Of a stretch of 45,736 bases of DNA, positions 8,899 through 42,079 are shown piece by piece. Location of the stretch: positions 1 to 45,736 of the IMG/VR virus record IMGVR_UViG_3300047557_004297; one strand, written 5' to 3'. How positions within the stretch are numbered: position 1 is the first letter of the stretch; every line of letters starts with the position of its first letter. The notes beneath the pieces are model-generated. The model was not told the DNA's origin. It saw only the letters and a program-made list of their open reading frames with translations, and searched no databases. A program made the translations under genes and the position numbers. The stretch is from a virus.

Positions 8899-8913
8899 AC
8901 CAAACTTTCCTGT

Positions 8914-8921
8914 TATTTATA
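8914..8921 (+). promoter_or_regulatory. Putative late promoter TATTTATA
   Basis: TATTTATA lies on the plus strand 15 bases before the ATG of the superoxide dismutase fusion gene. A possible weak Shine-Dalgarno (AGGA) follows immediately. Confidence 0.7.
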
Positions 8922-8936
8922 GGAAAATCTTCTAAC

Positions 8937-10460: not shown

Positions 10461-10467
10461 TGCCGAC

Positions 10468-10475
10468 TATTTATA
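10468..10475 (+). promoter_or_regulatory. Putative late promoter TATTTATA, 3 bases from ATG
   Basis: TATTTATA ends three bases before the ATG of the gp13-like gene. If it works like the T4 late element (start site 5-7 bases downstream), the transcript would be leaderless or nearly so. Confidence 0.65.
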
Positions 10476-10478
10476 GAC

Positions 10479-11597
10479 ATGGCAGTAATTCCGGAACCCG
10501 AAAGAAGTAGAATTTATACTCGATTGAAGCACCAACTTGGTGCACCTCTACGAAGCGTAGAATTAGAGGATGATATGTTGGATTCCTTGATGGAGCTTTC
10601 CATTCAGGATTACGAACAATACGTTCTTGATTGGTTGATTGAATCACAATGGGTAAACCTTGTGAATTTAAATATGAGTGAAAAGTCGGTCGCTAACGCA
10701 CTGATTACACGAACTCTCAACTTCGAAGACCAATTCACCTACGCATACTCGAAGATTGTAGGACTTCAAACTATGGGACCATGGGTCTTAAAACAAGATT
10801 ACTTTGTTTTGAGTGCTAATACCCAAACGTATGAAATCCCTGCGGGTAGAGAGGTAAACGAACTTCTATGGTTTTCTAACCAACCATTCCAAAACTTAGC
10901 CCTTTGGGGAACCACTGACTATGGATTTGGTGGTGTTGGTTTGGGTGCTAACCAAGCAGGTTATGCACAAATTGGAACTGCCGGTTCTTACTTTATGTTA
11001 AGTGGATTTGATTACCTCTTGAGATATCAAGAGGCAAACATTCTTAACAGAATCTTGGGTGGTGAATTAACTTACAAAATCACAGGATTACCTGATGGTA
11101 AAAAGTTAATTACCCTCTACAACGCCCCGGGTAGTAATTTCTCATGGAGTAACTACTCTGAATATACAGGTAAAGCTGTTTGGTATTTCTATTACGAAGT
11201 AGACGGTGACAGTAGAGCTCAATGTCTTAAAGATAACCCCGACATCATCAAGTTACCTTCGGATGTACCCATTGAAGAACTATCATGGGAAGATTTAAAT
11301 GTTCCTGGTCAACAATGGGTTAGACGTTGGTTCACTGCTTATGCTAAAGAAACCTTGGCTCGTGTTCGTGGAAAATATAGTGGTAACTTGAAGACTCCCG
11401 ATAGTGAAATCATCATGGACTATCAAGTACTTCAGACTGAGGCTAAAGATGAAAAAAGTAAGTTAGAAGAAGAATTAAAACTACGTCTTGAAAGACTCCG
11501 TCCTGAAAACCAAATGAAGAAGGAAGCGGAGATTGCTGAAAACCTCAACAAACAAATGAAGTTCAGAGCAATGCCAAGACAAATTTACGTAATCTAA
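10479..11597 (+). CDS. gp13: gp13-like neck protein
   Basis: The N-terminus (IYTRLKHQLGAPLRSVELED then DDMLDSLMELSIQDYEQYV) carries the hallmark of T4-like gp13 proteins: a short helix, an LGAP motif, an acidic strand and a long helix. gp13 joins the head vertex to the tail through gp14. At 372 residues it is somewhat longer than T4 gp13 (309). A C-terminal charged coiled-coil-like stretch (about 325-360, Lys/Glu-rich) is visible. The gene lies on the plus strand, away from the gp14/gp15 pair at 6.7 kb, whereas in T4 these genes are contiguous. The first ATG is used here although it almost touches the promoter-like octamer; the next in-frame ATG would destroy the LGAP domain. Confidence 0.8.
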   Translation: MAVIPEPERSRIYTRLKHQLGAPLRSVELEDDMLDSLMELSIQDYEQYVLDWLIESQWVNLVNLNMSEKSVANALITRTLNFEDQFTYAYSKIVGLQTMGPWVLKQDYFVLSANTQTYEIPAGREVNELLWFSNQPFQNLALWGTTDYGFGGVGLGANQAGYAQIGTAGSYFMLSGFDYLLRYQEANILNRILGGELTYKITGLPDGKKLITLYNAPGSNFSWSNYSEYTGKAVWYFYYEVDGDSRAQCLKDNPDIIKLPSDVPIEELSWEDLNVPGQQWVRRWFTAYAKETLARVRGKYSGNLKTPDSEIIMDYQVLQTEAKDEKSKLEEELKLRLERLRPENQMKKEAEIAENLNKQMKFRAMPRQIYVI

Positions 11598-15485: not shown

Positions 15486-17153
15486 TTAGGACTCTTTTCT
15501 TAAACCTGCTTCATAAAACTCAAATCTATTGTGTTCCGTGGGAGTAATCATCATCAGAGCTGGTTTGATGTTTCCCGCTTTTGTTTCTTGGAAGATGTAA
15601 CTCATCCACGTTTGTTCAAAAGGACGGTCCCACTTAGTTGTTAAAAACATTTTCTCATTTCCATACTTTGAAACTACTTGCGGCCAGTTACAATAGTAAA
15701 CCTCACCTATGGCAAAGGGGATATTCTTATAAGAGAACATTTGATTGAATTTGGTCCTCGGAGCATTCGGGTCCAAACCATGAACGGGAAGATTGGGTTT
15801 TTCCGGCCAATACTCTTCTCGTTTGTTTTGTGGTACATTATACCACGACCATTGGACTCCATTATCACCATAAAACTCAGAATAATTGAGTTTGATGAAA
15901 TCCAACGAATGGTTTTTGGTTATTTCCAAGGACTTTTCATAGATTCCACTTACGTGTCTATTGAAACCATTTCTACAAACTGAATCTTTTCCATTGTAGA
16001 AAAACATGTCATCTTCAAAAAACCAATAAAAGTCAAAGTCGTTTTCCTGAGCGTGTTCTGCAATCCATTGTCTACCACCACAAATTCCTAAATTATCTTT
16101 TTTGATATGTTCAAAACCATGTTGTTCGCAAAGTACCGAGTATTTCTCGGTAGTTGAAAGGTCGGATGAATTGTCTAATAAAAACTTTTTCGGTTTCGTC
16201 AAAAAGTTATTATCATAAAGTTCCATTGATTTAATCAAAGTTTCAAACTGGTTCGGACTATTGAATGTGATTACGTAAAGTGCCGTATTATTAACATCTA
16301 ACTTGTTGTAGTTTGAAATACCATTTACGTTTTTCAATACGTGCTTGTCATTTTTTAAATCTTCACAGAATTTACCAATCAATCCATTGTCTTCAATTTG
16401 ATAGTAGTCAAACATGTCAGAATGACGATATAACATAATACTGAAAATTGACTCTTCAGTACCCATGTAACCATCCGATAGAGTTGATTGGAGAATGTTA
16501 TAATAAATTCCGTTAACATCTGCAATCACATTTTTATTTCCACCAAACAGACCACCTCTACAAACTAACTTTACATCGGCGCCGGCGTATTGATTAATCT
16601 TTGGATATGTGAAACCATGAATTTCGGTTTCAGCTTTGTAAGGAAATGCAATGAAACCAAATTTTTGGAAAAGTTTATCAAACTTATTTTGGATTTTATC
16701 GTGTGTGAAGTATCCCCAATGAACTGTGTTGGTAATTCCCGCATCAATCCAAAATAGATATTCAGAATCAAATTGGTCCATTATACGGGCATCATTTAAC
16801 AAGAACATCTTGGACATGACAAGTGGGTTGTACATTTCCAATTTAGCTTGTGTTGATTCTGGTAACCAACCTGATTGACCATACCAAGAAGGATTCGTTC
16901 TTATTTTTTGAATTTTCTCGTAGATATCGTTTTTGAACCAATCTTGTGACCTTGGTATGAACTGTGTGTTTTCTCGATTTCTTCTCTCGAAAACAAATGT
17001 TTCTAACTCAGGGTCACCAAAAATTATCATGTTGTTCTCAACTTTTAAAAGTTGGTCAAACTTTTCCAAGTAATGTTCAAAACTTCTTGACCATCCTTCA
17101 GTCAATGAGTCTCTTTTAATGTTCCATAATCCTGTTACTAAAGTTGTAGACAT
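15486..17153 (-). CDS. HtrL/YibB-like domain fused to GT-A glycosyltransferase
   Basis: The 555-residue protein (ATG 17153; upstream frame rejected because it overlaps the methyltransferase) has two modules. Residues 1 to about 270 match the HtrL/YibB family: VTGLWNIKRDS at the start, AKLEMYNPLVMSKMFLL and the acidic strand EYLFWIDAGI, a likely DxD-type nucleotide-sugar site. Residues about 300-555 are a GT-A glycosyltransferase: ALYVITFNSPNQFETL, NLGICGGRQWIAEHA and YWFFEDDMFF with the EDD metal-binding motif. Together they could add two sugars in sequence. It is the last gene of an eight-gene minus-strand operon, one base after the methyltransferase stop. Sugar specificity cannot be read from sequence. 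Confidence 0.8.
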   Translation of the reverse strand: MSTTLVTGLWNIKRDSLTEGWSRSFEHYLEKFDQLLKVENNMIIFGDPELETFVFERRNRENTQFIPRSQDWFKNDIYEKIQKIRTNPSWYGQSGWLPESTQAKLEMYNPLVMSKMFLLNDARIMDQFDSEYLFWIDAGITNTVHWGYFTHDKIQNKFDKLFQKFGFIAFPYKAETEIHGFTYPKINQYAGADVKLVCRGGLFGGNKNVIADVNGIYYNILQSTLSDGYMGTEESIFSIMLYRHSDMFDYYQIEDNGLIGKFCEDLKNDKHVLKNVNGISNYNKLDVNNTALYVITFNSPNQFETLIKSMELYDNNFLTKPKKFLLDNSSDLSTTEKYSVLCEQHGFEHIKKDNLGICGGRQWIAEHAQENDFDFYWFFEDDMFFYNGKDSVCRNGFNRHVSGIYEKSLEITKNHSLDFIKLNYSEFYGDNGVQWSWYNVPQNKREEYWPEKPNLPVHGLDPNAPRTKFNQMFSYKNIPFAIGEVYYCNWPQVVSKYGNEKMFLTTKWDRPFEQTWMSYIFQETKAGNIKPALMMITPTEHNRFEFYEAGLRKES

Positions 17154-17154
17154 A

Positions 17155-17787
17155 TCAATATTTCTTTTTACACACCCAAACGACAGACTCAAAAATCTGA
17201 CGGTTATAGTCAACTAAATTATTTTCTTGACAACATGCTAAAATGTCTGATTCGGACATTTCGTGCCAATTCCAAATTTTTAGATAAATTGATTCTTCAA
17301 AAACTTGTCTGTTGAAAGCGTAATCATGACCCAAGATGTAATCTCCTCTTTTAATAAATTTGGACAAAAGATTAAATTCTCTGATTTTGTCACCACCATC
17401 ACATAGAACAATAGTTACACCATCGCCCTGAATGAAATCTTTGTATTCCTGTGGAATGTCTTGATAACCGTTCAAAAAGATGTCTTCAATTCGAAGGTCA
17501 ACACCCATTTCGATAATACCTTGATACCAAGATTTTTCGTGGACATCCAAAGATAAAATGTGAGTGTCTAAACCCAAACGGTCACAGGCATACTTTAAAA
17601 ATTGCGTGAACCCACCGTTTGATGTTCCAATTTCCAAAATTCTTTTTGGTTGTACATCTCTAATGAAGTTATAAAAAACTTCGAAAGCATTATGATTTTG
17701 TTGGGCACCCCAACCGTTGTAAGTTGAAATACTGTCATTGTGTTCCAAGTTACTCTTTTTAAAAATTTTGTCTTCAAATTCCATCAT
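17155..17787 (-). CDS. SAM-dependent class I methyltransferase
   Basis: The 210-residue protein has a Rossmann methyltransferase core: PKRILEIGTSNGGFTQFL (about 48-65, motif I with G-T-S-N-G), HILSLDVHE (motif II acidic residue) and VTIVLCDGGDK (motif IV), then a DYILGHDYAF strand. The CDGG and HDY pattern recalls the CmcI/Methyltransf_24 type used on small molecules and sugars. In this cluster it probably methylates a sugar hydroxyl, an inference from context. ATG codons at 17787 and 17784 are both possible. The start overlaps the end of the upstream GT10 gene by 14 bases. Confidence 0.8.
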   Translation of the reverse strand: MMEFEDKIFKKSNLEHNDSISTYNGWGAQQNHNAFEVFYNFIRDVQPKRILEIGTSNGGFTQFLKYACDRLGLDTHILSLDVHEKSWYQGIIEMGVDLRIEDIFLNGYQDIPQEYKDFIQGDGVTIVLCDGGDKIREFNLLSKFIKRGDYILGHDYAFNRQVFEESIYLKIWNWHEMSESDILACCQENNLVDYNRQIFESVVWVCKKKY

Positions 17788-18676
17788 TACACAAATTATT
17801 AATTTTCTTTAACAAGTTATAGTTGTTAAAATATTTTTCTTTTATTCTTAAAACTTCAGGTAACATTTTGTCATAAAGTTCTTCAGCATTATTCTCAATG
17901 TGATTAATTAATTCTAAACATTGTTTGTGGTTTGTAACGTCTTCAAATGTAAAATAACCGCACTCGGGATAAATTTCTTGTAAATTTGTACAACCCATGT
18001 AGATTGGTACTGTGTTGTACAAAATTGAATCATAAAACTTTTCGGTAATCCAATTTTTAGTATATTGGTTTTCCAAAGCAATACTGAATCGATAAGATTC
18101 TACCGCACTTTTTTTGTCAGATTCTTTTTTCAAATCCCAACCAGAATAGAAATCAATAAAGGGTGCGTTTTCAATGAGATATTGATTCAGGTTATGTCTA
18201 CTTCTGTAGGAACATCCTTCGGGATTAATGTCATCCGAATTGAGTTTTGTTATAACTGAGGAAATGTTTCTTGTTTTTGTTGGATTGATATTAATTAGAG
18301 TTTCGTAATTCCAATCCTCTTTCTTGTCAATCCAAGGACCTCTTCCACCGTAAAAGGTGTGAGCCGGAGTTTCAACACAGACTTCTTGTGGTGAATAAAA
18401 CTTTTTGTCGAAACCAAAAACTGTGATGTCGTTATCCTTTGGATAATTCACTTGGTGTGAACCCGCCCATGTTGGTTCGTGGGGAAAAACAAAAACTTTG
18501 GACCCTTTTTTAATTGGTAAATTGATATGATTGAAAAATACCACAACATCGTATGAATCATCGTAAACAAACTCAATGTTAGAGGTGTCTTGTTCTGATG
18601 TTTTAAATTGATAAATCAACCTTTGTGTGAGGTTTTCAGAGGTGTCCCAATTTGCAGATATTCTTACTTTTTTCAT
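17774..18676 (-). CDS. GT10 family (fucosyltransferase-like) glycosyltransferase
   Basis: The 300-residue protein ends in the GT10 signature, about residues 195-230: YRFSIALENQYTKNWITEKF then YDSILYNTVPIYMG. This corresponds to the alpha-1,3-fucosyltransferase motif 'FENS-x-x-x-DYVTEK ... PV-x-x-G' that binds GDP-fucose. The N-terminal half carries FVFPHEPTW, the position of the acceptor-binding domain. The family moves fucose, or a related GDP-sugar, onto GlcNAc-containing glycans. It lacks a membrane segment, as bacterial members do. It overlaps the FkbM gene by four bases (ATGA). A second GT10-like gene lies at 43.3 kb. Confidence 0.85.
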   Translation of the reverse strand: MKKVRISANWDTSENLTQRLIYQFKTSEQDTSNIEFVYDDSYDVVVFFNHINLPIKKGSKVFVFPHEPTWAGSHQVNYPKDNDITVFGFDKKFYSPQEVCVETPAHTFYGGRGPWIDKKEDWNYETLININPTKTRNISSVITKLNSDDINPEGCSYRSRHNLNQYLIENAPFIDFYSGWDLKKESDKKSAVESYRFSIALENQYTKNWITEKFYDSILYNTVPIYMGCTNLQEIYPECGYFTFEDVTNHKQCLELINHIENNAEELYDKMLPEVLRIKEKYFNNYNLLKKINNLCNDGI

Positions 18677-19320
18677 ATCGGTTTTTTTATCAGGGATTTT
18701 TTATTCTGAAAAAGAATATCTACTTGAATCAAGTCCAAACCATTTAGTCTGTGGAACTCCAAAATCTCATAGATGTCAAACTTATCTCTCAGATATTCAA
18801 TTACATCACCAATCATACATCCACCAACATTCCATTCGACTAGAGAACATTCAATTTCAATGAACTCAACCTCATCCAACATTTTACCAAGACCTTGCAT
18901 TATAATAATCTCTGAACCTTGAGTATCTAATTTCAACAAATCTATTTTTTGGATGTTGTGTTTTTCACAAAGGGTTTTTAAAGTTGTACTTACTCTTTTT
19001 TCCTCGACTAATCTGTCACCCTCATAGTGCATTGTATTTTCTCTGAATAAAGAATCACCCGTACAATGTCCTTCAACCTTTTTGTAGAAAATAACTTCTT
19101 TTCCGTCTTCATTGGATAAAACTTGCACTTCACCGATGTTAACGTGTGGAAAACTTCCATTCTGATTCCAATCATTAGCGTCCACACCCATTAATGTTGT
19201 TTCAGGAAATGTTGCCCTTACCGATGCACTCCACTCACCATGACAGGCACCACCATCAACGGAAACTTTGGGATTGAACCCAAATTGTTTTAATCTGTTG
19301 TAAACTAACTCCCGATACAT
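18673..19320 (-). CDS. FkbM-family methyltransferase
   Basis: The 215-residue protein shows the FkbM signature: VSVDGGACHGEWSASV (about 19-34, SAM-binding motif I) and KIDLLKLDTQGSEIIIMQG (about 124-142, with D-T-Q-G-x-E in place of the usual D-V-E-G). FkbM enzymes O-methylate sugars and polyketides and are frequent in surface-glycan clusters. It is the second methyltransferase of the operon. Coupling is tight: TAATG with the upstream gene and ATGA with the GT10 gene. Confidence 0.88.
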   Translation of the reverse strand: MYRELVYNRLKQFGFNPKVSVDGGACHGEWSASVRATFPETTLMGVDANDWNQNGSFPHVNIGEVQVLSNEDGKEVIFYKKVEGHCTGDSLFRENTMHYEGDRLVEEKRVSTTLKTLCEKHNIQKIDLLKLDTQGSEIIIMQGLGKMLDEVEFIEIECSLVEWNVGGCMIGDVIEYLRDKFDIYEILEFHRLNGLDLIQVDILFQNKKSLIKKPI

Positions 19321-20099
19321 TAAACTTTAACTTTTTCCCAATTGTTAGCATTGAATCCAACCTTCAAAATTTGAATTTGGTTTCCCCATCCCATTTCACC
19401 CATATTGATACCAGCCAAATGAGCTGAAACACCAATTTCAAATGCTTCCATATCATAAGTGATTGGATGATTTTCATCTTGAGTTTCGAACTGAGTGCAG
19501 AAGTCCTCAAAGTGTTTTGCCATCAAACTCAAACGTTCTGAATTTTTTACAAGGAACACGTGTTCGGACGGTAGTTTAGCACCACTCCACTCGGGGTGAA
19601 TTCCATAAAATAAAAACTTCGCATTAAAAAGTGGTTTGGGCCAAGAGTTGAAATCTGTAGTTTCTTTAAATTCTTTCTCAGCCCAATCGTAGGTGGCATC
19701 AGTTCTCAGAGCAACCATATCGAATCCATTATTTTCCCAATGCTCAATCATTCTTTCTACATCCTCAACATTGACTTGTTCTGTGAATCCCGCATCACAA
19801 TCCATGTAAAGAACATAGTCATACGAACTGTCAATATCTTTGATGGCAGCGAACTTTAACAACTGATTAAATGCACCTACATGGGTTTTGTGATTTTCTA
19901 ATTTGTCTTCTTTGATAATCACCCGTTCTGTATTTTTAATATCTTCAAACAAATCTGCTCTGTTTGTAGATACCATAACATCCCATGGAGTTTTTGTTAA
20001 TACGTCGTTAACAAGTCTTTTTGCAAAAGTTGTGTAGATTTCTGAACCCTGTTTACGTTCATTCACAAAAGAAATTGCTGAAACTAAAATTTTTCTCAT
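19320..20099 (-). CDS. Probable GT-A glycosyltransferase
   Basis: The 259-residue protein begins with a GT-A-like strand (KILVSAISFVNERKQGS) and has an acidic metal-binding motif YVLYMDCDAGF (about 95-105, DxD), followed by an amphipathic helix. A later stretch (SGAKLPSEHVFLVKN) and EAFEIGVSAHLA fit acceptor-side elements. I do not recognise a CAZy family with certainty. Its role as a glycosyltransferase follows from the DxD motif and its place among sugar-modifying genes, overlapping the upstream GT-B gene by four bases. Confidence 0.7.
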   Translation of the reverse strand: MRKILVSAISFVNERKQGSEIYTTFAKRLVNDVLTKTPWDVMVSTNRADLFEDIKNTERVIIKEDKLENHKTHVGAFNQLLKFAAIKDIDSSYDYVLYMDCDAGFTEQVNVEDVERMIEHWENNGFDMVALRTDATYDWAEKEFKETTDFNSWPKPLFNAKFLFYGIHPEWSGAKLPSEHVFLVKNSERLSLMAKHFEDFCTQFETQDENHPITYDMEAFEIGVSAHLAGINMGEMGWGNQIQILKVGFNANNWEKVKV

Positions 20100-21738: not shown

Positions 21739-22986
21739 TTACAAAGTCCCTGTCAAACGTTCGCACCAACCTTTAGATTCTGAGTGCGGCCAAACCACCC
21801 AATATGTTGGTTTAGTTTCGGTTTGGAACTCTCTCCAAACTTTACAGTATCCATCGGGGTCGTTCATCATTCTCTTGATTTCATGAACGTCAGCATCTTT
21901 TCTGAATAAAGTTTCATCATTCGGTCCGTGGAAAGCCACAACCCAAAAATCATAATCTTTTTCAGGTACTGATGCATAGTTTACGTCAATACAATGTTTG
22001 AATACAGATGCAAAATGTTTTTTCCATTCTTCTTCACTTTCGAAGTTGTATGGATTGGGTGGGTAGTGTTTCTCTAAAGTATATTGTTGAACAGCACGTT
22101 TTTCAAACAATAATCCTGCGTATTTCTCATAATCTCTAAGACTTCGTTCCGTGCCGAATCCATAAGGACCATCATGACCTTCTTGGTCCAAACCATCCAT
22201 ACCAAAAAGTTTACGGTTCAATAGGTGAGACTTGTTGTTTCTTTCAACCCATTTCTTATCGTCATCCCATTGTTTGGTTCTACCTTTACGAGTGTATTCG
22301 TGCCAAATCAAAACTTTGTGAGGGTGAAACAAATCATAACCCCAAGTGTACGCTCTCGCGGCGATTGAAATTTCCTCACCATGGAAATAGTATTCAGGGT
22401 TATGTTGAACCTCTGTTGAGAACTGACCTAATGTAAAACAATAGTGTGCTGAGTAAAAACGAGCTGGCACAGGTTCCTTCAAATCTTGCCAACCAGGAAT
22501 TGTTTCTGGTAAGAAAAATACGGCACCTTCAGGAATAAAACGGTCGAATGCCATTCTCCATGGTTCTTGTACACGACCTGCGGGGTCATTGTCGGGGTCG
22601 AATGAAGAAACATATCCTGTAAGAAGTGGTTTTTTATGTCCCTTCTTTTGGAGTTGTTTAATCATCTTAATCATCTCATCATCCCAATCAGGTGCAAAAC
22701 GCATGTGAGAATCAATTTGAAGTGTGTATTCTTCACCTTCGTAGAGTTGTTGTACTAAGTTTCTTGCCCAACAAACACCTTCAGCTTCTTGGTATGGAAT
22801 ATTAAGGATTCTGAATCTTTTATCTTTTTCAAATTCTTGTAGGTCGTCAAATCCATCTTCAGGACTAAACTGACGAGCAATACCTATTCTTAAATTTTTT
22901 GGTCTTTTAGCATTCTCCAACATGTTTTTAATTGTTGGAATGAGTTGGGGGTCACGATAAGCTGCAATTTGGACGAATATTTTCAT
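21739..22986 (-). CDS. GT60-like GlcNAc-transferase
   Basis: The 415-residue protein matches the GlcNAc glycosyltransferase family typified by Dictyostelium Skp1 GnT1 (GT60): FVQIAAYRDPQLIPTI at the N-terminus, LRIGIARQF, QIDSHMRFAPDWD (D92-S93-H94, the DxH metal site) and YFHGEEISIAARAYTWGYD (about 200-218). Skp1 GnT1 adds GlcNAc to hydroxyproline of a cytoplasmic protein; bacterial and phage members have unknown acceptors. This makes it a candidate for adding the first sugar to protein Thr, Ser or Pro-rich linkers (inference). It is the first gene of the minus-strand glycan operon. A 12-bp inverted repeat and a near-match to the late octamer lie just upstream. Confidence 0.88.
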   Translation of the reverse strand: MKIFVQIAAYRDPQLIPTIKNMLENAKRPKNLRIGIARQFSPEDGFDDLQEFEKDKRFRILNIPYQEAEGVCWARNLVQQLYEGEEYTLQIDSHMRFAPDWDDEMIKMIKQLQKKGHKKPLLTGYVSSFDPDNDPAGRVQEPWRMAFDRFIPEGAVFFLPETIPGWQDLKEPVPARFYSAHYCFTLGQFSTEVQHNPEYYFHGEEISIAARAYTWGYDLFHPHKVLIWHEYTRKGRTKQWDDDKKWVERNNKSHLLNRKLFGMDGLDQEGHDGPYGFGTERSLRDYEKYAGLLFEKRAVQQYTLEKHYPPNPYNFESEEEWKKHFASVFKHCIDVNYASVPEKDYDFWVVAFHGPNDETLFRKDADVHEIKRMMNDPDGYCKVWREFQTETKPTYWVVWPHSESKGWCERLTGTL

Positions 22987-23061: not shown

Positions 23062-24174
23062 TTAAACTACGTCAAGAGTCAAAGTTTCTGTCGCACCGGA
23101 ACTACCCCACTGAGTTATGTAGGTGCCGACAACGGCTCCTAAAGTGGATAGAGTTGTACCTGTAAACGTTGAGGTTCCATTAAGAACACCTCCAGAATAC
23201 CCTTGTGGGACTTTGATACCACCAAATCCATCGGTACCAAAATTATCACCGGTTACCGAGTCGGCAGTAGTAAGGTTTCCTGAACCAAACGATGGGGGTG
23301 TGCCCAAACTAGCTCCTGTATAGACTTCTTCATTTATTGATGAACCCACACAGAAAAGTCCTTGTGACGGATTAATAAAACTTGAACCAGCACTGTAAAG
23401 CGCTGGTGTGAGAGATGATAAGTCCACACTTCCAGTTCCCGATAACACAACGTCAGGTCCAACTTCCTGTAATGTAAAGAAGAATCCCTGAATTGGTGGT
23501 GTTGATGATGGTGTTGGTGTAGGTGTTGGAGTTGAAGTTTGTGTTACCGTTGGAGTTGGGGTAACAGTTGGACAGTTACCGTAAACTGAAATTGTTGAAC
23601 CAGTAATACATCCAGGACCACATCCAGTACTTACTTCATATATGATATTATTCTCAAGGTAATAACCTTCAGGGTTACCCGTATTTACACCCGCCTCATC
23701 AGACCATACTAAAGTTGAATCAGATAGATTAGTTCCATTGACAAATAAAGTTGCAAATCCTGGACATCCACAAATTGCTACAGGGTCCGCTTCATCATGA
23801 CAAACATTCTCCAATCTAGTTCTAATTATGTTTGTTGGTGTTGGTGTAATTGAACTTGTCAAAGTCATGGTTGGTGTTATAGAAGGTGTTACCGATGGCG
23901 TTGGGGTCATAGAGGATGTCACCGATGGCGTTGGTGTCATAGAAGGTGTTACGGATGGCGTTAACGTAGATGCTGGCGGAAAAACACCGTCATCAACCAC
24001 ACTGAGCATAGATGTTTGGGGCACTGTAAATGTTCCGTTGATTGCCCAAACGTTTTTGATTTGACCTGCCTCAACAACAAAATCATAATTCCACATCAAG
24101 TTATTACACTCTTGATATGAATATACCTGAGTAGTTGCGGTGTTGTTTGTTAAAGTATATTTACGACAAGCCAT
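23062..24174 (-). CDS. Modular fibre-like protein with Thr/Pro linkers
   Basis: The 370-residue protein has four parts. Residues 1-60 form a beta domain also present at the start of the 1378-residue neighbour (shared YSYQE and MWNYD patterns, then KN-(V/L)-WA-(I/V)-N). A Ser/Thr/Pro linker (about 68-115) is followed by a Cys-rich domain (about 115-200), a second PT linker, and a C-terminal beta domain (about 230-370). The last domain (DLSSLTP, then SFGSGNLTTADSVTGDNFG, VPQGYSGG and a final strand) resembles the repeating lectin-like part of many PEP-CTERM surface proteins, though no sorting tail is present. Probably a virion fibre or decoration protein; attachment site unknown. TATTTATT precedes the ATG by 14 bases. 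Confidence 0.75.
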   Translation of the reverse strand: MACRKYTLTNNTATTQVYSYQECNNLMWNYDFVVEAGQIKNVWAINGTFTVPQTSMLSVVDDGVFPPASTLTPSVTPSMTPTPSVTSSMTPTPSVTPSITPTMTLTSSITPTPTNIIRTRLENVCHDEADPVAICGCPGFATLFVNGTNLSDSTLVWSDEAGVNTGNPEGYYLENNIIYEVSTGCGPGCITGSTISVYGNCPTVTPTPTVTQTSTPTPTPTPSSTPPIQGFFFTLQEVGPDVVLSGTGSVDLSSLTPALYSAGSSFINPSQGLFCVGSSINEEVYTGASLGTPPSFGSGNLTTADSVTGDNFGTDGFGGIKVPQGYSGGVLNGTSTFTGTTLSTLGAVVGTYITQWGSSGATETLTLDVV

Positions 24175-24219: not shown

Positions 24220-27200
24220 TTACCAAGGACACCAATACCCTCCGATTTCTCCGGCAACTATACAACCATTAACGATTGTGGGACAGGTTGGGAATGTTCC
24301 TGTACCTGTTGCGGTTACAGAACAACAACTATTGGAGCCAGGACTTGTACAATAATTGTAAGAAGAATAAATTGGTGTGCTAATGTGACATCTTATTTCA
24401 TTTCCAAATGTTGCGATGTTTGCAACATCAACTCTTAATGTATACCAAGTGTTATTAACAGGTGATGGAATATTAAACACTCCATACTTACAATCACCTT
24501 GTAACCCTGTACCAACAGCAATTCTAATGTTGGTAGAAGCCGTCGAGACTTGTACATATTTGAATGAAATCATGTAAGAATAAGACCTTGTTGGGTATGG
24601 GTCACTTACATGAGATTCTGTTTGTAATGAAAGTGGCTTTGTGTCCGAAACAATATATGGTCCCAAACCTACCCCACCATCATTACATGGTTGTAGATAT
24701 GAATACCATTCACTAATATTTTGATACAACGCCGCCGAAGACGGTGCTGCAATACTTTCGTAAATTGTTATACTCTGTGACGTTCCCGCAACACACGCAC
24801 AAGCTGAAGTTGGTGTTGGAGTCGGAGTTGGTGATTTAGTTACCGTTGGTGTTACTGTTCTGGTTGGAGTTGGTGTTGGAGTTCTCGTTGGTGTTCTTGA
24901 AGGAGATACAGATGGTGTTGGAGTGTTTGTTGGTGTCGCGGTGTTAGTTGATGTTGGTGATGGTGTTATCTGAGCTTTACAACTATTAACGGTTTCACAT
25001 GTGGCACAATCATTATAAGTTGTCGCACCTTCGGTGTAAGGTATATTATTACCCTCACCCGTACCATAGAAAGTTCCTGTCAAAGGTCCTACGTTAACGA
25101 ATGAAACTGGTTGTTCAATAATTGTATAACAAATATTTGTTAAACTTGTCTGACCTGTAATGTACCAAACTCCGTTAGGTGGTATTTGTGAAGATTGATT
25201 ATCCAAATAAGAAATTGCGTAGTAAGAACCTGGACTACAACAGTTTTCCAAGTATACAAAGTTCAAATTGTTAGTTGGAGTTGGGGTTGGAGTTTGTGTT
25301 CTTGTTGGAGTAACCGTTGGGGTTGGTGTTGGACAGGGGTAATCTATTATACATTCTTCACAGTTTAGCTGACCATATTCATCAATAACAAAACTACCTG
25401 ATTCTAAAATTTGTGTGGGTTCACTAATAATTTTCCAACATTCAATTGAACCTGTGAAGTTGGCGGCTATCGTATCGTTAGCACTTGGAACATAACCATT
25501 TAGAATGTTGATGTTTTGGTCCGTAAGTTCTATTCTCGTATCACAACAATTTTGTACCGTAACTTTGTAATAAACCGGTTCTGAACTTGGTGTCACTGTC
25601 ATAGTAGGGGTAACAGTAGGTGTTGAAGTTGGGTCAGGTGTTACCGTTGGAGTAAGTGTTGGTGTTACACTGGAACTTGGTGTATTAGATGGTGTGTTAG
25701 ATGGTGTGTTACTTGGAGTGTTTGATGGTGTGTTACTTGGTGTATTCGATGGTGTTTGAGTTGGTGTAATTGATGGTGTTATAGTTGGAGTAACACTAGT
25801 ACTTGGTGTGTTACTTGGCGTATTGGATGGTGTATTACTTGGTGTATTACTTGGTGTATTTGACGGAGTATTACTTGGTGTTTGAGTTGGCGTAATTGAA
25901 GGAGTGATAGTTGGTGTGACACTAGTACTTGGAGTGTTGGAAGGTGTGTTACTTGGTGTATTTGATGGAGTATTACTTGGAGTGTTGGAAGGTGTATTAG
26001 ATGGTGTTTGAGTTGGTGTTATTGAAGAAGTAATTGTGGGTGTAACACTAACACTTGGAGTATTGGATGGGGTGTTCGAAGGTGTATTTGATGGTGTATT
26101 ACTCGGAGTATTACTAGGAGTGTTTGATGGGGTATTAGTTGGAGTCTCTGTAGGTGTGATTGAAGGAGTTACTGATGGTTCAGGTGTATTTGAAGGGGTA
26201 TTACTTGGAGTATTCGATGGTGTGTTACTTGGAGTATTACTTGGCGTATTCGATGGTGTGTTTGTTGGTGTTTCGGTCGGTGTAATTGATGGTGTTAAAG
26301 TTGGAGTAACACTCACACTCGGGGTATTACTTGGTGTATTCGAAGGCGTGTTGCTAGGAGTATTACTTGGAGTATTCGAAGGTGTATTACTTGGAGTATT
26401 TGTCGGGGTTTCCGTAGGTGTGATTGAAGGAGTTACTGATGGTTCAGGTGTATTTGAAGGTGTATTACTTGGAGTATTTGATGGCGTGTTACTTGGGGTG
26501 TTTGTTGGAGTTTCAGTTGGTGTAATTGAAGGACTCACACTCGGCTCAGGTGTGTTGGATGGAGTATTAGATGGTGTGTTTGTTGGAGTATTGGTCGGTG
26601 TAATACTTGGAGTGTTGGATGGTGTATTAGAAGATGTATTCGTTGGTGTGTTACTTGGAGTCACACCTGGGGTATTACTTGGAGTATTTGAAGGTGTATT
26701 CGTTGGAGTGTTAGTTGGAGTTTCAGTTGGTGTTACTGAAGGACTTACACTCGGCTCAGGTGTGTTACTTGGAGTGTTTGATGGAGTATTTGTTGGGGTG
26801 TTAGTTGGAGTTTCAGTCGGTGTCACTGAAGCACTGACGCTTGGCTCAGGGGTATTACTTGGAGTATTAGATGGAGTATTTGTTGGAGTGTTAGTTGGGG
26901 TTTCAGTCGGTGTGTTTGTTGGGGTGTTACTTGAAGTGACTGCTGGTGTATTCGATGGAGTTTGAGTTGGAGTTTCTGTAGGTGTCACTGAAGGTGATGC
27001 GCTCACAGATGGGGTATTACTTGGCGTATTTGAAGGTGTATTTGATGGAGTATTTGTCGGTGTTTCAGTCGGAGTATTTGAAGGTGACGCACCTGGTGTT
27101 GCAGTTGTCGAAGACGTCGGTGTTTGAGTTGGGGTCTCAGTTGGTGTAAGAGTGTTTGTGGCTGAAGGTGTGTTCGTAGGAGTTTCTGTTGGACTTACAC

Positions 27201-28356
27201 TCGGAGTATTTGAAGGTGTGTTAGTCGGAGTTTCTGTTGGACTTGGAGATGGTGATGCACCAGGTGTTTCACTTACAGAAGGAGTAATCGAAGGTGTTAC
27301 AGTTGTAGTATTAGTTGGTGTTTGCGTTGGGGTTTCTGTAGGTGTAGAACTATTTGTTGGTGTTGGAGTTTCGGTACTAGTTTGTGTAACTGACGGACTT
27401 GGTGTTGGGGTTGTTGAACTTGTTGGTGTGTTTGTTGGTGTTTCTGTCGGTGTAAGAGTTGGTGTTTCTGTATTAGTTGGAGTAGGTGACTGAGAAGCTC
27501 CAGGACTCATGGTTACAGTTGGAGTTGGTGTCTCACTTGAAGTAATACTTGGCGTTGGAGTGACAGATGATGTAATTGTTGGAGTTATTGTTGGAGTAGT
27601 CGTTGGACTAACGGTTGGTGTTGGTGTTATAGAACTTGTAACTGTTGGTGTAACAGTATTTGAAGGTGTGACCGAAGGGGTTGATGCAATACTTGATGTT
27701 GGTGTATTGGTTGGTGTTTGAGTTGGTATCAACGTACAATCAACAACTTGAGTTACGATACTACCTGACAGAGTTAATACTTGTGTGTAACCAACAGGTG
27801 ATATTGTACCCAAAATGTAATTTCCAAAAAGTGGATAACCGTCGACTTCGAATGAAGTCCCCGAGGCATTTTGAATTTGTGTTCCAATGATAGCAGGATA
27901 AGTACCTACATAAACCGGAGCGAATTGTCCGTCGGCATTCAGGGGATTTACTTGTAGGTAATCGTATGCTTGACAAGCATCTGTTGTTGAACCTGTGAAA
28001 ACACCTTCATATAAACTTGAATATGTTAGTTGTAAAACATATCTTGGGTCGGTTGGAGTTATGGTTGGGGTCGGTGTAACACTTGATGTGATTGTTGGGG
28101 TTTGAGTTGGTGTAATAGTTGGTGTTGGTGTCGAGGTTCTTGAATTTGTTGGAGTGAATGGGTATTGACAATCCTCATCCACAATCATGGTATAAGAATA
28201 TGCTGTTATAAATGTATTATTTACCGCCCATAAATTTTTGGTCTGATTGGGTAATAATTCATAATCATAGTTCCACATTCCTGTGGTATACTCCTGATAC
28301 GAATAAGTCATTATCTCATTCGTAGGATTATGAATAGTAATAAAACAGCCCGCCAT
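24220..28356 (-). CDS. Giant mucin-like fibre protein with TPSNTP repeats
   Basis: The 1378-residue protein starts with the same beta domain as its neighbour (residues 1-60). A globular segment at about 105-215 precedes a low-complexity stalk of about 700 residues (about 215-920) built from SNTP, TNTP and TETP tetrapeptides, in which almost every other residue is Thr or Ser and every fourth is Pro. The C-terminal part has two related Cys-rich beta domains (about 922-1010 and 1030-1130, each with an N-C-C start and a closing C-x-x-C), a PT linker, and a final domain (about 1185-1378) with several Cys. The stalk resembles eukaryotic mucins and would be a rich O-glycosylation target. A fibre or surface-decoration role is inferred from domain layout and location beside other fibre genes. 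Confidence 0.85.
25590..27735. repeat. 12-base coding repeats for SNTP/TNTP mucin-like stalk
   Basis: About 2.1 kb consists of 12-base units encoding Ser/Thr-Asn-Thr-Pro and variants, organised in blocks of six to eight SNTP units separated by segments of the type [12 protein letters not shown], giving a higher-order period near 42 residues. Neighbouring units differ at many third codon positions, so the DNA repeat is much less regular than the protein repeat. Confidence 0.9.
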
Positions 28357-28414: not shown

Positions 28415-29647
28415 TCAAAAAATCTTATTTAGTACAAATAAATCAGCATAAATTTCGTTTCCTGGGTCTGTAGCGCTGAATTCTATGGTAACATCTAAGG
28501 TGTTGGGGATTGTTGTATCAAAAGTCGTGTTATTTATATTTAGGAAGCCTTCACCATAGACTTGACCATTATTCTTTACAATTTGAAAATTTCCGTGAGT
28601 GGATATTGAAGCAATTCCGGCAGCACCGATTGTTCTAATTGTAAAATACGCATTGAAAAACCAATTATCGTTAAGCGCTGAAGGTGCAAATGCCGCACTT
28701 TGGGCTAATACAACTGAACCCGATTTCAAACGAATAATAATGTCATCATTTGTGGTGCTTGCAATTCCTCCCATAATCAATTGAAAACTATCACCAATTG
28801 AAAATCCGTTCGCCGGCACGGATAGTGTACCAACACCTGTACCAACAATAGATGTTTCAGTTGTTGCAGTTGCTGTTAAACTATTTCCTGTCAAAGAGTA
28901 AAGTCCATATACTAAGGGATATGGTGGTGTTGGCGCCGAGATTCCTGAAGACCCTGAAGTACCTGACGAACCGTTATCCCCGTTAATTCCCGAGGTACCA
29001 TCAATTCCACTACTACCACTTGTGCCTGAAGTTCCATCAATTCCACTACTACCACTTGTGCCTGAAGTTCCATCAATTCCACTACTACCACTTGTGCCTG
29101 AAGTTCCATCAATTCCACTACTACCACTTGTACCTGAAGTTCCATCAATTCCACTACTACCACTTGTGCCTGAAGTTCCATCAATTCCACTACTACCACT
29201 TGTACCTGAAGTTCCATCTGTTCCGCTAGTCCCACTACTTCCACTTGTGCCAGAAGTTCCATCTATACCACTACTTCCACTTGTGCCAGAAGTTCCATCT
29301 AAACCGCTAGTACCTGAAGTTCCGTCAATACCACTACTTCCACTTGTGCCAGAAGTTCCATCTAAACCGCTAGTACCTGAAGTTCCGTCAATACCACTAC
29401 TTCCACTTGTGCCAGAAGTTCCATCTAAACCGCTAGTACCTGAAGTTCCGTCAATACCACTACTTCCACTTGTGCCTGAAGTTCCATCTATACCACTTGT
29501 TCCTGAAGTGTTGGATGAAGTGAAAGCAGAATATGGTATTTTGTATGTTGCCCCTGATGGGTCTACATTGTAATTGACTATAACCATCCAAGAATCTGAG
29601 TATCCTGTGGATGCTAATGGTAATTGGGAGATGGGTAAATTTGGCAT
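28415..29647 (-). CDS. Collagen-like tail fibre protein
   Basis: The 410-residue protein has an N-terminal region (1-45) that opens like many phage fibre proteins ([12 protein letters not shown]), where such segments bind the virion. Residues about 48-240 are collagen-like Gly-x-x triplets in the form [12 protein letters not shown] and [10 protein letters not shown]. The C-terminal 170 residues form a beta-rich head ending in [21 protein letters not shown]-type strands, likely a trimeric C1q/TNF-like receptor-binding or capping knob. Gly-x-x stalks of phage fibres fold as collagen triple helices even without hydroxyproline. TATTTATA precedes the ATG by 12 bases. The stalk is encoded by nearly perfect 36- and 63-base repeats, so its length may vary among relatives. 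Confidence 0.88.
28998..29213. repeat. Six tandem 36-bp repeats in collagen-like stalk
   Basis: Six consecutive 36-base units starting at 28998 (then 29034, 29070, 29106, 29142, 29178) are almost identical, differing mainly by one G/A at the Thr codon. Each encodes 12 residues of Gly-x-x triplets. Confidence 0.92.
29275..29463. repeat. Three perfect tandem 63-bp repeats in collagen-like stalk
   Basis: Units start at 29275, 29338 and 29401 and are identical as read. Each encodes 21 residues (seven Gly-x-x triplets). A partial fourth copy follows. Confidence 0.92.
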
Positions 29648-36747: not shown

Positions 36748-36804
36748 CCCCCCTTTATTACTTCTCAGCCAATTGTTATATTTTAGGGAAACCTATTATT
36801 GACA

Positions 36805-38019
36805 ATGGCAAAAATTAACATTTTGGTGGTCCCATCCGACCGTTCGGGTGTCGGAAAGTTCCGTTCTATTGACCCCCATATTTTTTTACAAAACGAATTC
36901 CCTGATGATTTCTACGTGGAGATTGAGTTCAATCCACCTATGAATGATTTATCTTTTTACGACAAATTTCAAATTGTTGTTTACCACCGTAGTTTGGGAC
37001 CCGACTTCGAGAAGTCTTACGAAGTAGTGGAAAAACTCAAACAAAAAGGAATTGTTACTATTTGTGATATTGATGACTATTGGAGACCAACTAAGGAACA
37101 CCCAATCCATGATATAATTGTCTACAACAAGGTGGATGAAAAGATTAGAAAGAGTGTTGGACAAGCGGGTATTGTTACTACCACCACAACATTTTTTGCA
37201 GATGAAATCAAGAAATTCAACAAAAATGTTTACTTATTCCCCAACGCAATCAATCCAAATGAACCTCAGTTCAGAGAACCAACTCCTGAGTCTGACAGAT
37301 TAAGAATCGGATGGTTGGGTGGTTCATCACACCTTCACGACTTGAAACTCCTTAACGATTCTTTCGCTAAGATTACACACCTCAAGGACCAAGTACAATA
37401 TGTTCTTTGTGGTTTTGACACTCGTGGTACAATTACTGAAATCAACGCACAAACAGGGGAACACAAAAAACGAAACATCAAACCTGAAGAAACTGTTTGG
37501 GCTCGTTATGAAGAAATCTTCACTCAGAATTATAAGATTATATCTGACGAATACAAAAACCAACTTCAGAAATGGGAACAGAAAGAATACCCTGAGTTTG
37601 CCAACGAGGCTTACCGTCGAGTATGGACACTACCTGTTACTTCATATGCTAAAAATTACGCGAAATTTGACGTATCTTTGGCACCGATTAAAAACCATAT
37701 GTTCAACCGAGTGAAATCACAACTTAAAGTTATTGAGGCGGGTTTTTATAAGAAGGCACTTATCGCCTCGAACATTGGACCCTACACCATTGATTTGAAA
37801 CATTGTTTGAAAAACGGACAATTTGTCGATGGTAACGCACTCTTGGTTGATGAAAAAAGAAATCATGCCGATTGGGCAAAATACATTCAAAAACTTTTAC
37901 AAAATCCAAACATGGTCAAAGATATGGGTGAACGACTCTACGAAACCGTTAAAGATGTTTATGATTTGAACAAAGTAACAAAAGACCGAGCTGAATTTTA
38001 CAAAAGTTTAATTAAATAA
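36805..38019 (+). CDS. GT4-like glycosyltransferase
   Basis: The 404-residue protein (ATG 36805; a TTG six bases earlier is less likely) has a GT-B fold: NILVVPSDRSGVGKFRSIDP at the N-terminus with the Gly-rich acceptor turn, VTICDIDDYW, PNAINPNEP, then RLRIGWLGGSSHLHDL starting the donor lobe, and VSLAPIKNHMFNRVKSQLKVIEAGFYKKALIAS (split here as the donor-binding region near residues 290-320). Specificity is not readable. It opens the plus-strand glycan operon. A weak TATATTTTA element is at 36777-36785. Confidence 0.85.
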   Translation: MAKINILVVPSDRSGVGKFRSIDPHIFLQNEFPDDFYVEIEFNPPMNDLSFYDKFQIVVYHRSLGPDFEKSYEVVEKLKQKGIVTICDIDDYWRPTKEHPIHDIIVYNKVDEKIRKSVGQAGIVTTTTTFFADEIKKFNKNVYLFPNAINPNEPQFREPTPESDRLRIGWLGGSSHLHDLKLLNDSFAKITHLKDQVQYVLCGFDTRGTITEINAQTGEHKKRNIKPEETVWARYEEIFTQNYKIISDEYKNQLQKWEQKEYPEFANEAYRRVWTLPVTSYAKNYAKFDVSLAPIKNHMFNRVKSQLKVIEAGFYKKALIASNIGPYTIDLKHCLKNGQFVDGNALLVDEKRNHADWAKYIQKLLQNPNMVKDMGERLYETVKDVYDLNKVTKDRAEFYKSLIK

Positions 38020-38021
38020 TT

Positions 38022-38732
38022 ATGATTAAAATTCCAATAACCAAGATTTTATTTTTGGATATCGAGACTGTTGGTTTAGAAAAAAACTACACGGCATGTG
38101 TGGAAAAACATCCTAAAATCGCTGAGCAGTTTGACAAATACTTTGATTGGTTCCTCAAAAGATTTCCTGAGGACCAACTCATCGAGGAGGACCAAAAGAA
38201 CAAAGTATTTGCGACACGTTGTGCTTTGGTACCTGAATTTGCCAAAATCGTCTGCATCAGTGTTGCCTTTGTTTTAGAAAATGGTGAAGTCAAAAAACAA
38301 ACGTTTTCCAATCACAACGAAAAACAACTTTTGTCTGATTGTCAACAACTTTTGGACCGTTGTGGTCGATTGGACTTTTGGCTTTGTGGACACAACCTTA
38401 AGAATTTCGATATTCCAATGATGGCAAAAAGAATGGTAATCAACGGATTACTTCCACCTTCCATTCTACCCTCTTACGATACAAAACCATGGGACATCAA
38501 AGCAATTGATACTCGTGAGATTTGGCAGTTTGGAGCCTACACAGCAATCGGTTCTTTGGACTTGATGTGTGCATCTATGGATGTCCCATCACCAAAAGAT
38601 GGTGAAGTAACAGGTGACAAAGTCCACGACGCTTATTGGAATCAAAACAAACTCCAAGAAATTGCCGACTACTGTGAAAAAGACGTTAATGTATTAATCG
38701 ACATTATTAAAAAATTAAAATCACTTAAATGA
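38022..38732 (+). CDS. DnaQ-like 3'-5' exonuclease (PolB-exo type)
   Basis: The 236-residue protein has the DEDD catalytic signature: FLDIETVG (residues 11-18, D-x-E), GHNLKNFDIPMMAKRM (about 123-138, second Asp) and YCEKDVNVL (about 217-225, Y-x-x-x-D). This combination with Tyr marks the DEDDy class and fits predicted exonucleases related to family B polymerase proofreading domains. It may trim DNA ends or RNA. It is additional to the proofreading domain in the phage polymerase. It sits inside the glycan operon, overlapping the dUTPase gene by four bases. Confidence 0.88.
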   Translation: MIKIPITKILFLDIETVGLEKNYTACVEKHPKIAEQFDKYFDWFLKRFPEDQLIEEDQKNKVFATRCALVPEFAKIVCISVAFVLENGEVKKQTFSNHNEKQLLSDCQQLLDRCGRLDFWLCGHNLKNFDIPMMAKRMVINGLLPPSILPSYDTKPWDIKAIDTREIWQFGAYTAIGSLDLMCASMDVPSPKDGEVTGDKVHDAYWNQNKLQEIADYCEKDVNVLIDIIKKLKSLK

Positions 38733-39337
38733 GTAATTACGATTTAAATGACCCTGAATTTACCAAGGAACTCCTCAATCTCTACGAAGAAATTAAAAAA
38801 ATAGAGGACGAGGAGAATCCCGTTTTAGCCGACCTTGAAGATAAGTTAGGATTCAAGATTTCCGACTTTGAGGAATTCTTACACGAGGCAATGACTAAAA
38901 GACCTTTCTATTATAAAAAATTACATGAAGACGCTGTTGAACCTGCTTATGTTTATTCAGGTGATTCAGGTTTTGACTTACATAGTGTTGAAGAGGTTCA
39001 CTTCTTACCCTTTGAAAGAAAATTGGTTCCAACAGGTTTGTCATTTGATATTCCCGAGGGATTTGAACTACAAATTAGAACTAAGAGTGGACTTGCACTT
39101 AAACAAGGTCTTATGGTTTTAAATAGTCCTGGTACTGTTGACCAAGGTTATACTGGTGAAGTCAAAGTTATTCTAATGAACATGAATAATACGACTATAA
39201 CAGTTGATAAAGGACAAAAAATTGCTCAGGCAGTTTTGTGTTCCGTAGAATCAGGTGCTAAAGTTATGTTGATGAAAACTGAGGAAATTGACGAAAAAGA
39301 CCGAGGTGATAAAGGATTTGGTTCAACTGGAATTTAA
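38729..39337 (+). CDS. dut: dUTPase (deoxyuridine triphosphatase)
   Basis: All five motifs of trimeric dUTPases are present in order: YSGDSGFDLHS (I, about 75-85), RTKSGLA (II, about 117), GTVDQGYTGEV (III, about 134, with catalytic Asp), GQKIAQAVL (IV, about 163) and RGDKGFGSTG (V, about 191-200). The enzyme cleaves dUTP to dUMP and pyrophosphate, keeping uracil out of DNA and supplying dTMP precursor. The protein is 202 residues, with an added N-terminal helical region of about 60 residues not found in standard forms (about 140-150). The next gene starts one base after its stop. Confidence 0.95.
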   Translation: MSNYDLNDPEFTKELLNLYEEIKKIEDEENPVLADLEDKLGFKISDFEEFLHEAMTKRPFYYKKLHEDAVEPAYVYSGDSGFDLHSVEEVHFLPFERKLVPTGLSFDIPEGFELQIRTKSGLALKQGLMVLNSPGTVDQGYTGEVKVILMNMNNTTITVDKGQKIAQAVLCSVESGAKVMLMKTEEIDEKDRGDKGFGSTGI

Positions 39338-39338
39338 A

Positions 39339-39725
39339 ATGGAGAATGTAAGTCCCGTATTACCCGAAGGGGTAAAAAACTACCTTATCGATATTGATGG
39401 AACAATCACGGAAGATGTACCCAATGAAGAACCTTGGAGAATGGTAAATTGCGAACCTTACGAAGGGTCTTTATCAATCATTAATAAATGGTTCACCGAA
39501 GGTCACATTATTACTTTTTTTACTTCAAGAACTGAAGAACATCGTGAAGTGACAGAATCATGGTTGAAGAAAAATGGATTCAATTACCATAACCTTTTAA
39601 TGGGTAAACCTCGTGGTGGGAACTACCATTGGATTGACAATCATATCGTCAGAGCCACTCGATATAACGGAGCTTGGACACCCTTAACAAAAGTTAAAAC
39701 AGACATAGAAGTTTTTGAAAAATGA
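39339..39725 (+). CDS. HAD-like phosphatase
   Basis: The 128-residue protein (ATG 39339, directly after the dUTPase stop; a longer frame inside dUTPase was rejected) shows HAD motif I YLIDIDGTITED (about 15-26) and motif II IITFFTSRTEEHREV (about 50-64), then a short core with RGGNYHWIDNH and an acidic motif. Size fits small sugar-phosphate or nucleotide phosphatases lacking a cap. In this cluster a sugar-phosphate substrate is plausible but unproven. The following gene overlaps by four bases. Confidence 0.82.
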   Translation: MENVSPVLPEGVKNYLIDIDGTITEDVPNEEPWRMVNCEPYEGSLSIINKWFTEGHIITFFTSRTEEHREVTESWLKKNGFNYHNLLMGKPRGGNYHWIDNHIVRATRYNGAWTPLTKVKTDIEVFEK

Positions 39726-42078: not shown

Positions 42079-42079
42079 T

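Follow-up and report, generated by a model that had tools for sequence, protein, structure and literature searches.

A two-residue hydroxyl rule in the stalk of a putative phage fibre encoded beside a PF11397 glycosyltransferase

The stalk gene and its fibre neighbours

The window analyzed here is the whole of IMG/VR virus record IMGVR_UViG_3300047557_004297, a linear stretch of 45,736 bases with matches to tail sheath, gp19-like tail tube, helicase, DNA polymerase B and dUTPase proteins. It carries a stalk gene, P0001, whose long threonine-proline (TP) repeat obeys a two-residue rule, and, close by on the same strand, a gene for a PF11397 glycosyltransferase; we lean towards the view that the shaft is sugar-coated by enzymes of the phage itself. 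The parts of P0001 and the adjoining fibre genes are listed below by position in the window.

24220..28356 (-): stalk gene P0001, open reading frame of 1378 aa
28156..28356 (-): N-module of P0001, about 67 residues, 39% identical to the N-module of P0002
25588..27729 (-): stalk of P0001, 714 residues (210-923), mostly (S/T)-x-T-P, with 58 SNTP units
24862..25587 (-): two Cys-containing domains with TP linkers between them, 85% identical to the ortholog in the sister phage L003
24223..24795 (-): C-terminal tip, with no homology to that of the L003 ortholog
23062..24174 (-): P0002, an N-module plus a short TP stalk, between P0001 and the glycosyltransferase gene
28415..29647 (-): P0003, collagen-like fibre protein with homogenised DNA repeats, upstream of P0001
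29673..34100 (-): P0004, fibre/virion protein upstream of P0001, with TP linkers and, at its C terminus, a LamG/ConA-like domain

P0001 is laid out as N-module, linker, domain, stalk, the two Cys-containing domains with their TP linkers, and the C-terminal tip. The N-module also opens TP-stalk proteins in related phages; it is predicted to form a small fold of five beta strands, and a search limited to BFVD returned only matches with E > 0.06 and gave no assignment. With Ser/Thr at 364 of 714 positions and 167 Pro, the stalk has the Ser/Thr/Pro-rich tandem-repeat character of mucin-like domains. P0001 matched no Pfam family, collagen included, and nothing among the GenBank phages; its sole PHROGs match was phrog_15511, of unknown function, and the lack of a match to a named tail-fibre family does not exclude a tail fibre. 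The gene belongs to a cluster of fibre genes, with collagen-like tail-fibre and LamG neighbours, and the protein combines a shaft with an exchangeable tip, as is characteristic of tail fibres. On these sequence features, P0001 is a putative phage fibre or fibril that would be carried on the virion. The tip is likely to be the receptor-binding part; no homologs of it were confirmed in IMG/VR. P0002 is separated from the stalk gene and the glycosyltransferase gene by 45 and 75 bp, respectively. Exact matches among the TP linkers of the three proteins P0001, P0002 and P0004 reach 14-17 bp at most, and no recent DNA exchange among them was seen.

A two-residue rule in the stalk

Split into two alternating phases of 357 positions each, the stalk has Ser or Thr at 344 positions of the first phase and 20 of the second, and all 167 Pro residues fall in the second (x) phase. 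The phase is constant in 35 of 35 twenty-residue windows, without a slip. Pairing of Ser/Thr was 0.46-0.47 at the even lags tested, out to lag 600, and 0.05-0.10 at odd lags, against an expected 0.26. The same pattern was found in 387 tracts (55,220 residues), which were selected as having at least 70% Ser/Thr/Pro per 40-residue window plus TP pairs; for all slot and lag counts on this set, duplicates were removed by identical first 30 residues only. Up to lag 12, even lags in these tracts gave a pairing of 0.45 and odd lags one of 0.07-0.08, and in their 9720 xxTP units Ser/Thr filled slot 1 in 95.3% of cases and slot 2 in 10.1%. Every tract of at least 250 aa kept its phase at lag 100 (40/40). 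TP pairs force some alternation, but they produce neither the contrast between slots 1 and 2 nor the long-range phase. Slot 2 of the window tetrads is free to vary (N 76, V 18, E 18, I 13, Q 7 and others). An earlier, preliminary description of this gene had taken the stalk to be built of four-residue units; xxTP tetrads are certainly present, but the deepest repeat is one of two residues. The conserved feature of the stalk is hydroxyl alternation combined with TP pairs.

Codon divergence and recombination

The stalk contains 148 xxTP tetrads, and the 58 that read SNTP are spelled by 32 distinct 12-mers. Between adjacent tetrads (108 pairs), codon positions 1, 2 and 3 differ in 24%, 14% and 64% of codons, giving a synonymous divergence (pS) of 0.68 and a non-synonymous divergence (pN) of 0.21; divergence is thus far from equal across the three positions. 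To place the window among its relatives, a set of 92 stalks was compiled from dereplicated TP stalks of at least 150 aa in the fetched loci described below, with near-duplicates and stalks with fewer than five adjacent unit pairs dropped. In all 92, pS exceeded pN (means 0.61 and 0.23). The preliminary description had claimed a repetitive peptide encoded by diverged synonymous codons, long-term selection on the peptide pattern, and a contrast with the collagen-like neighbour, and all three are borne out. At a lag of 12 codons, synonymous identity in P0003 is 0.60 where 0.43 is expected (z 4.5), and its exact 25-bp repeat pairs number 502, compared with approximately 2 expected.

The same description proposed that codon divergence is itself selected because it keeps the array from recombinational collapse. 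If codons were selected to differ, then adjacent units should match less often than under within-amino-acid permutation. Within-amino-acid and context-aware codon permutations were applied to the window at 21 lags and then to the 92 stalks. Only two results merit weight as hints of avoidance: in the window, synonymous codon identity at lag 4 was 0.371 compared with 0.412 after permutation (z -1.95), a marginal value at one of 21 lags, and in the stalk of locus L087 adjacent-unit identity also fell below permutation (z -3.5). Over the 92 stalks, the mean z for adjacent-unit codon match was 0.03 (standard deviation 1.27), with three stalks below -2 and three above +2. Long exact repeats were in excess rather than depleted: the window stalk has 26 repeat pairs of at least 25 bp compared with 5.1 under codon permutation, and 18 of at least 30 bp compared with 0.7; its longest exact repeat is 47 bp compared with a permutation median of 26.5; and in 54 of the 92 stalks the excess lay above all 200 permutations. 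Because codon matches sit at the permutation level and long repeats are commoner than expected, the third positions look saturated, and saturated neutral third positions suffice to explain the codon divergence.

Comparison with L003, an 8.5-kb contig that carries a P0001 ortholog, bears on the same question. Protein identity between the two is 95% in the stalk (650 aligned codons), 85% in the middle domains and 77.5% in the N-terminal domain, again consistent with selection on the peptide, and codon differences in the stalk are 0.26 at third positions compared with 0.05 and 0.03 at first and second positions. Insertions and deletions in the stalk region are all of even length (8, 4, 54, 4, 4, 2 and 2 residues). 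Synonymous identity in 60-codon blocks is 0.74-0.92 from residue 181 to approximately residue 660, compared with approximately 0.42 for random pairing; beyond that point the codon register weakens (0.51-0.64). Window residues 633-648 align to L003 at offset 8 and residues 713-744 at offset 96, which delimits an 88-codon (264-bp) block that is present in the window stalk and absent from L003. The ends of this block coincide in the window with the stalk's longest exact repeat:

26414..26460 (-): 47-bp exact direct repeat, copy 1, from residue 633
26150..26196 (-): 47-bp exact direct repeat, copy 2, from residue 721, 264 bp from copy 1

Over the 64 codons past the repeat, the two 88-codon copies share only about 71-77% identity, so the duplication is old, and we read the difference as a probable deletion in L003 between the direct repeats; gene conversion, or a gain in the window, is a possible alternative origin. 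The number of SNTP units also differs, 49 in L003 and 58 in the window. A block difference at a direct repeat means that the stalk array is not protected from recombination, and together with the permutation results it makes selection of codon divergence against collapse hardly credible. Long repeat proteins can evidently persist without codon-level protection from recombination.

The serine codons of the SNTP units are mixed, with AGY in 25 units and TCN in 33. TNTP coexists with SNTP, so a route between AGY and TCN via Thr is open, and the mixture fits selection in slot 1 for a hydroxyl residue rather than for serine.

The tips of the two orthologs (window 24223-24795; L003 744-4532) are unrelated while the domains that precede them are 85% identical, an exchange of tips behind a TP linker. 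L003 has one extra N-module/TP-stalk gene (4560-6215) between its stalk gene and its P0002 ortholog. Codon usage in the window stalk departs from that of eight other window genes (CCA 0.65 vs 0.34, CCC 0.01 vs 0.17, AGT 0.42 vs 0.18). Long antisense open reading frames face the stalk at 26036-26965(+) and 27152-27493(+) and are accounted for by stalk composition; the former was rejected as a gene, with a longest antisense open stretch of 317 codons compared with a permutation median of 457.

The PF11397 enzyme and the genes that follow it

Downstream of P0002 lies a run of sugar genes, all on the same strand as the stalk gene from the PF11397 enzyme through HtrL_YibB. Assignments are profile matches, with a predicted fold in addition for the first.

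21739..22986 (-): PF11397 glycosyltransferase, 415 aa
21034..21732 (-): sulfotransferase, PF03567
20096..21034 (-): glycosyltransferase group 1, a weak match under the curated cut-off
19320..20099 (-): GT2-like, a weak match under the curated cut-off
18673..19320 (-): FkbM-type methyltransferase, PF05050
17774..18676 (-): family-10 fucosyltransferase-like, PF00852
17155..17787 (-): methyltransferase, FtsJ / RMNT_CmcI-like
15486..17213 (-): HtrL_YibB family protein, PF09612

The enzyme matched PF11397 with E 2.4e-68 and 231.6 bits (curated cut-off 21). An AlphaFold2 model built from 21 sequences had a predicted local distance difference test score (pLDDT) of 83.4 and a predicted template modelling score (pTM) of 0.80. 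Foldseek ranked a polypeptide N-acetylgalactosamine (GalNAc)-transferase first (E 5e-9), with the bacterial RmlT and TarS also high. Ranks 1-29 in VIA-align were polypeptide GalNAc-transferases only (Z 18.5-21.0, 264-304 residues, root-mean-square deviation 3.5-5.7), followed by LARGE1 (Z 16.3) and SpsA (16.2). The predicted fold is thus closest to the polypeptide GalNAc-transferases. D92-S93-H94, which we take to be the DxH metal-binding motif of this enzyme class, is invariant in 21 of 21 sequences and in phage XacN1. PF11397 presumably corresponds to CAZy family GT60. Related polypeptide alpha-N-acetylglucosamine (GlcNAc)-transferases of GT60 start mucin-type glycosylation in Dictyostelium and Trypanosoma cruzi, and some Dictyostelium glycans are capped with fucose, according to the available portion of PMC8724618.

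The genes after the enzyme vary among related phages. In the 50 of 55 loci that were covered, the three genes that follow it (150 proteins) included, among others, GT25 (23), HtrL_YibB (18), FkbM (12), GT10 (8) and PLOD glycosyltransferase-domain (6) proteins, and sulfotransferases were also among them. The GT25 and PLOD glycosyltransferase-domain families are known from collagen hydroxylysine glycosylation; they follow the enzyme in related loci, and the window has a collagen-like fibre nearby. Two PF11397 genes occur in some phages, adjacent in L246 and L253 and approximately 2-5 kb apart in L254 and L255. In the window, a second, divergent sugar cluster at 36799-45735(+) encodes a GT4-like protein, a GT2/GT4 fusion, a GT2 protein and a Polysacc_synt_2 epimerase-type protein, with PolB-type exonuclease and dUTPase genes interspersed.

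TP stalks are linked to the enzyme

Loci of the window clade were fetched by the enzyme (best 80 of 403 relatives), and a control set of 80 loci was fetched by this phage's tail sheath. Further sets were fetched by SNTP repeats (74 loci) and from two distant clades (157 loci), the latter by the L098, L120 and L136 enzyme copies, which are 41-50% identical to that of the window. Dereplication at more than 50% shared 31-mers left 55 enzyme, 69 sheath, 60 SNTP and 106 distant-clade loci. Of the 74 SNTP loci, 50, for the most part on longer contigs, were scanned for PF11397, and 41 of the 80 enzyme loci were scanned for PF13640.

Enzyme loci held 170 TP tracts in 920 kb (48/55 loci), compared with one tract in 866 kb of sheath loci (1/69). 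Within 5 kb of the enzyme in the window clade, 137 TP tracts were upstream, all on the same strand, and one was downstream; in the distant clades, 134 were upstream and 17 downstream. A TP tract lay within 3 kb upstream in 35 of the 42 window-clade loci with at least 2 kb of upstream DNA. Where a TP gene was present within 5 kb upstream, it ended no more than 150 bp from the enzyme in 36 of 44 loci of the window clade and 31 of 44 of the distant clades, and the median gap from upstream TP gene to enzyme was 74 bp and 49.5 bp, respectively. The N-module was found in 19 dereplicated fetched loci (window not counted), 17 of which have the enzyme, and 40 of 42 N-module reading frames (duplicate contigs counted) had a TP tract.

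In L043, L049, L057 and L077 of the window clade, the TP tracts are approximately 4-9 kb downstream of the enzyme rather than upstream. L004, a 322-kb virus contig, has a 3639-residue open frame (2-10921) in which TP linkers alternate with repeated globular domains. A collagen-like substrate was considered for distant-clade loci without TP tracts and rejected: 0 of 56 had an upstream GXX run of 30 residues or more.

Discussion

We favour, with measured confidence, the explanation that the fibre shaft is O-glycosylated in a mucin-like manner by the phage's own enzymes. P0001 would consist of an N-terminal module, an extended Pro-rich shaft of 714 residues and an exchangeable C-terminal tip. Selection would keep hydroxyl alternation and TP pairs while letting codons drift until saturated, and recombination still adds blocks to the array and removes them. 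The PF11397 enzyme would place N-acetylhexosamine (HexNAc), the presumed first sugar, on Thr/Ser of the shaft in the host cytoplasm, before assembly, as in mucin-type initiation; the nearby glycosyltransferases, sulfotransferase, fucosyltransferase-like protein and methyltransferases would then extend and cap the glycan. The supposed benefit is a dense sugar brush that stiffens and protects the shaft, which in turn would carry the tip, swapped between relatives, to the receptor that it binds.

Several observations weigh against this explanation. The enzyme is only 11-14% identical in sequence to the GalNAc-transferases, its sequence profile had 0 matches in the PDB, and GT-A folds resemble each other, so fold alone is not proof of function. 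The 55 enzyme loci come from related phages, and shared descent therefore inflates the linkage. In seven of the 42 window-clade loci, the 3 kb upstream of the enzyme hold no TP tract; in the distant clades, only 39 of the 95 loci with at least 2 kb of upstream DNA do have one there, and 50 of the 95 hold no TP tract at all. Viewed from the stalks, PF11397 was present in only 11 of 50 SNTP-fetched records, four of 10 SNTP-fetched PF11397 regions lacked a TP tract near the enzyme, and the commonest Pfam families in this set after TP genes were portal, collagen, PF11397, protease and sheath. The chief weakness is that alternation is just as strict in stalks without detected PF11397, so it may be structural and sugar an added layer. 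Finally, in XacN1 the TP gene is approximately 12 kb from the glycosyltransferase gene, and in the part of its report available to us (PMC5852040) the identity of the glycoproteins is not stated and tail fibres were not seen by the authors.

The main rival is that the glycosyltransferase cluster remodels host surface polysaccharide, for superinfection exclusion or serotype change, and adjoins the fibres as part of a shared host-recognition region; we regard it as unlikely, though of real weight. Phage glycosyltransferase clusters are treated as capsule or O-antigen modification systems in the accessible part of a jumbo-phage review (PMC7824862), PHROGs places the enzyme family under moron/host takeover, the second cluster at 36799-45735(+) includes a nucleoside diphosphate-sugar epimerase-type protein, and the tract-free distant loci also fit. 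Against remodelling, the nearest solved folds of the enzyme are polypeptide transferases, which rank above polysaccharide synthases, and in window-like and distant clades alike an upstream TP gene is mostly the enzyme's immediate neighbour and shares its strand. The one-sided, tight linkage is left unexplained by a somewhat less likely account, in which the stalk is an unmodified structural spacer, its Ser/Thr-Pro/x alternation shapes it into an extended or beta-like rod, and the enzyme has its role elsewhere. The spacer account draws on the persistence of alternation in stalks from phage records that lack PF11397 and on the pure two-residue period, as a two-faced strand requires. Hydroxyproline-linked, Skp1-like glycosylation, with Pro rather than Thr/Ser as acceptor, is very unlikely: the Skp1 hydroxyproline GlcNAc-transferase is among the relatives of the enzyme family (in the available portion of PMC8724618) and all stalk Pro lies in the x-phase, but a PF13640 2-oxoglutarate-Fe(II) oxygenase was found in only two of 41 enzyme-bearing records, which are fragments in which other hydroxylase families were not searched.

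If the mucin-like explanation is right, an enzyme fold of eukaryotic mucin synthesis would have found a new use, in the glycoprotein fibres that a virus makes inside bacteria; the genes neighbouring the stalk resemble enzymes by which animals and protists sugar-coat mucus proteins. It would also account for the long TP-repeat stalks of phage genomes and the glycosyltransferases encoded beside them, and would offer simple enzyme-substrate pairs for producing O-glycoproteins in bacteria. More tentatively, many uncultured phages could have a mucin-type pathway of their own, in which an acceptor-lattice shaft that keeps Ser/Thr strictly in alternate positions for hundreds of residues, a cytosolic polypeptide-GalNAc-transferase-like initiator whose gene immediately follows the fibre genes, and variable genes for extension, sulfation, fucosylation and methylation yield a phage-specific glycan brush.

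Relation to known systems

Phage tetrapeptide arrays, such as gp54 of mycobacteriophage Tweety (PMC2884959, in the portion available), and phage virion glycosylation are already known. The combination of a mucin-type initiator with a two-residue rule was not met in the open-licence PMC literature searched, nor was a paper recognised there that links TP-repeat stalks to PF11397 in phages.

The enzyme was found in three GenBank phage records at E <= 1e-5: XacN1, CM1 and RAS14. XacN1 offers an independent hint. It resembles the window in having an enzyme, ORF334, that is 48.5% identical to that of the window, and in encoding the TP-repeat protein ORF350; proteomics has also detected glycoproteins in it. 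It differs in the wide separation of the two genes noted above. The accessible part of PMC5852040 reports at least two glycoproteins, for which the authors propose phage glycosyltransferases, naming ORF328 and ORF334. The 31 kb fetched from RAS14 contain a single TP tract, which lies on the opposite strand.

Mucin domains initiated by GT27/GT60 enzymes share Thr/Ser/Pro tandem repeats with the stalk, and their initiator is related to the phage enzyme by the PF11397 profile and the predicted fold; unlike mucins, the stalk is viral, would be expected in the bacterial cytoplasm and keeps a strict two-residue phase, and the enzyme activity is a predicted one. Tweety gp54 likewise has many 12-bp/four-residue units whose number differs among relatives, but, as far as the available portion of PMC2884959 describes, its units are Ala-rich and third codon positions are invariant, with changes at first and second positions. 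The stalk does not share that invariance; its third positions differ most. Phage glycosyltransferases have been tied to virion-protein glycans in mycobacteriophages (Freeman 2023, as cited in the parts of PMC11256854 and PMC12619734 available), where the glycans are on capsid and tail-tube C termini, unlike the repeat stalk here.

The collagen-like phage fibre P0003 resembles the stalk in having a repeat shaft in the same cluster and differs in its Gly-X-Y repeat and homogenised DNA. Pro-Thr box linkers of bacterial cellulases are alternating Pro-Thr, extended and O-glycosylated; unlike the stalk, they are much shorter and occur in secreted enzymes.

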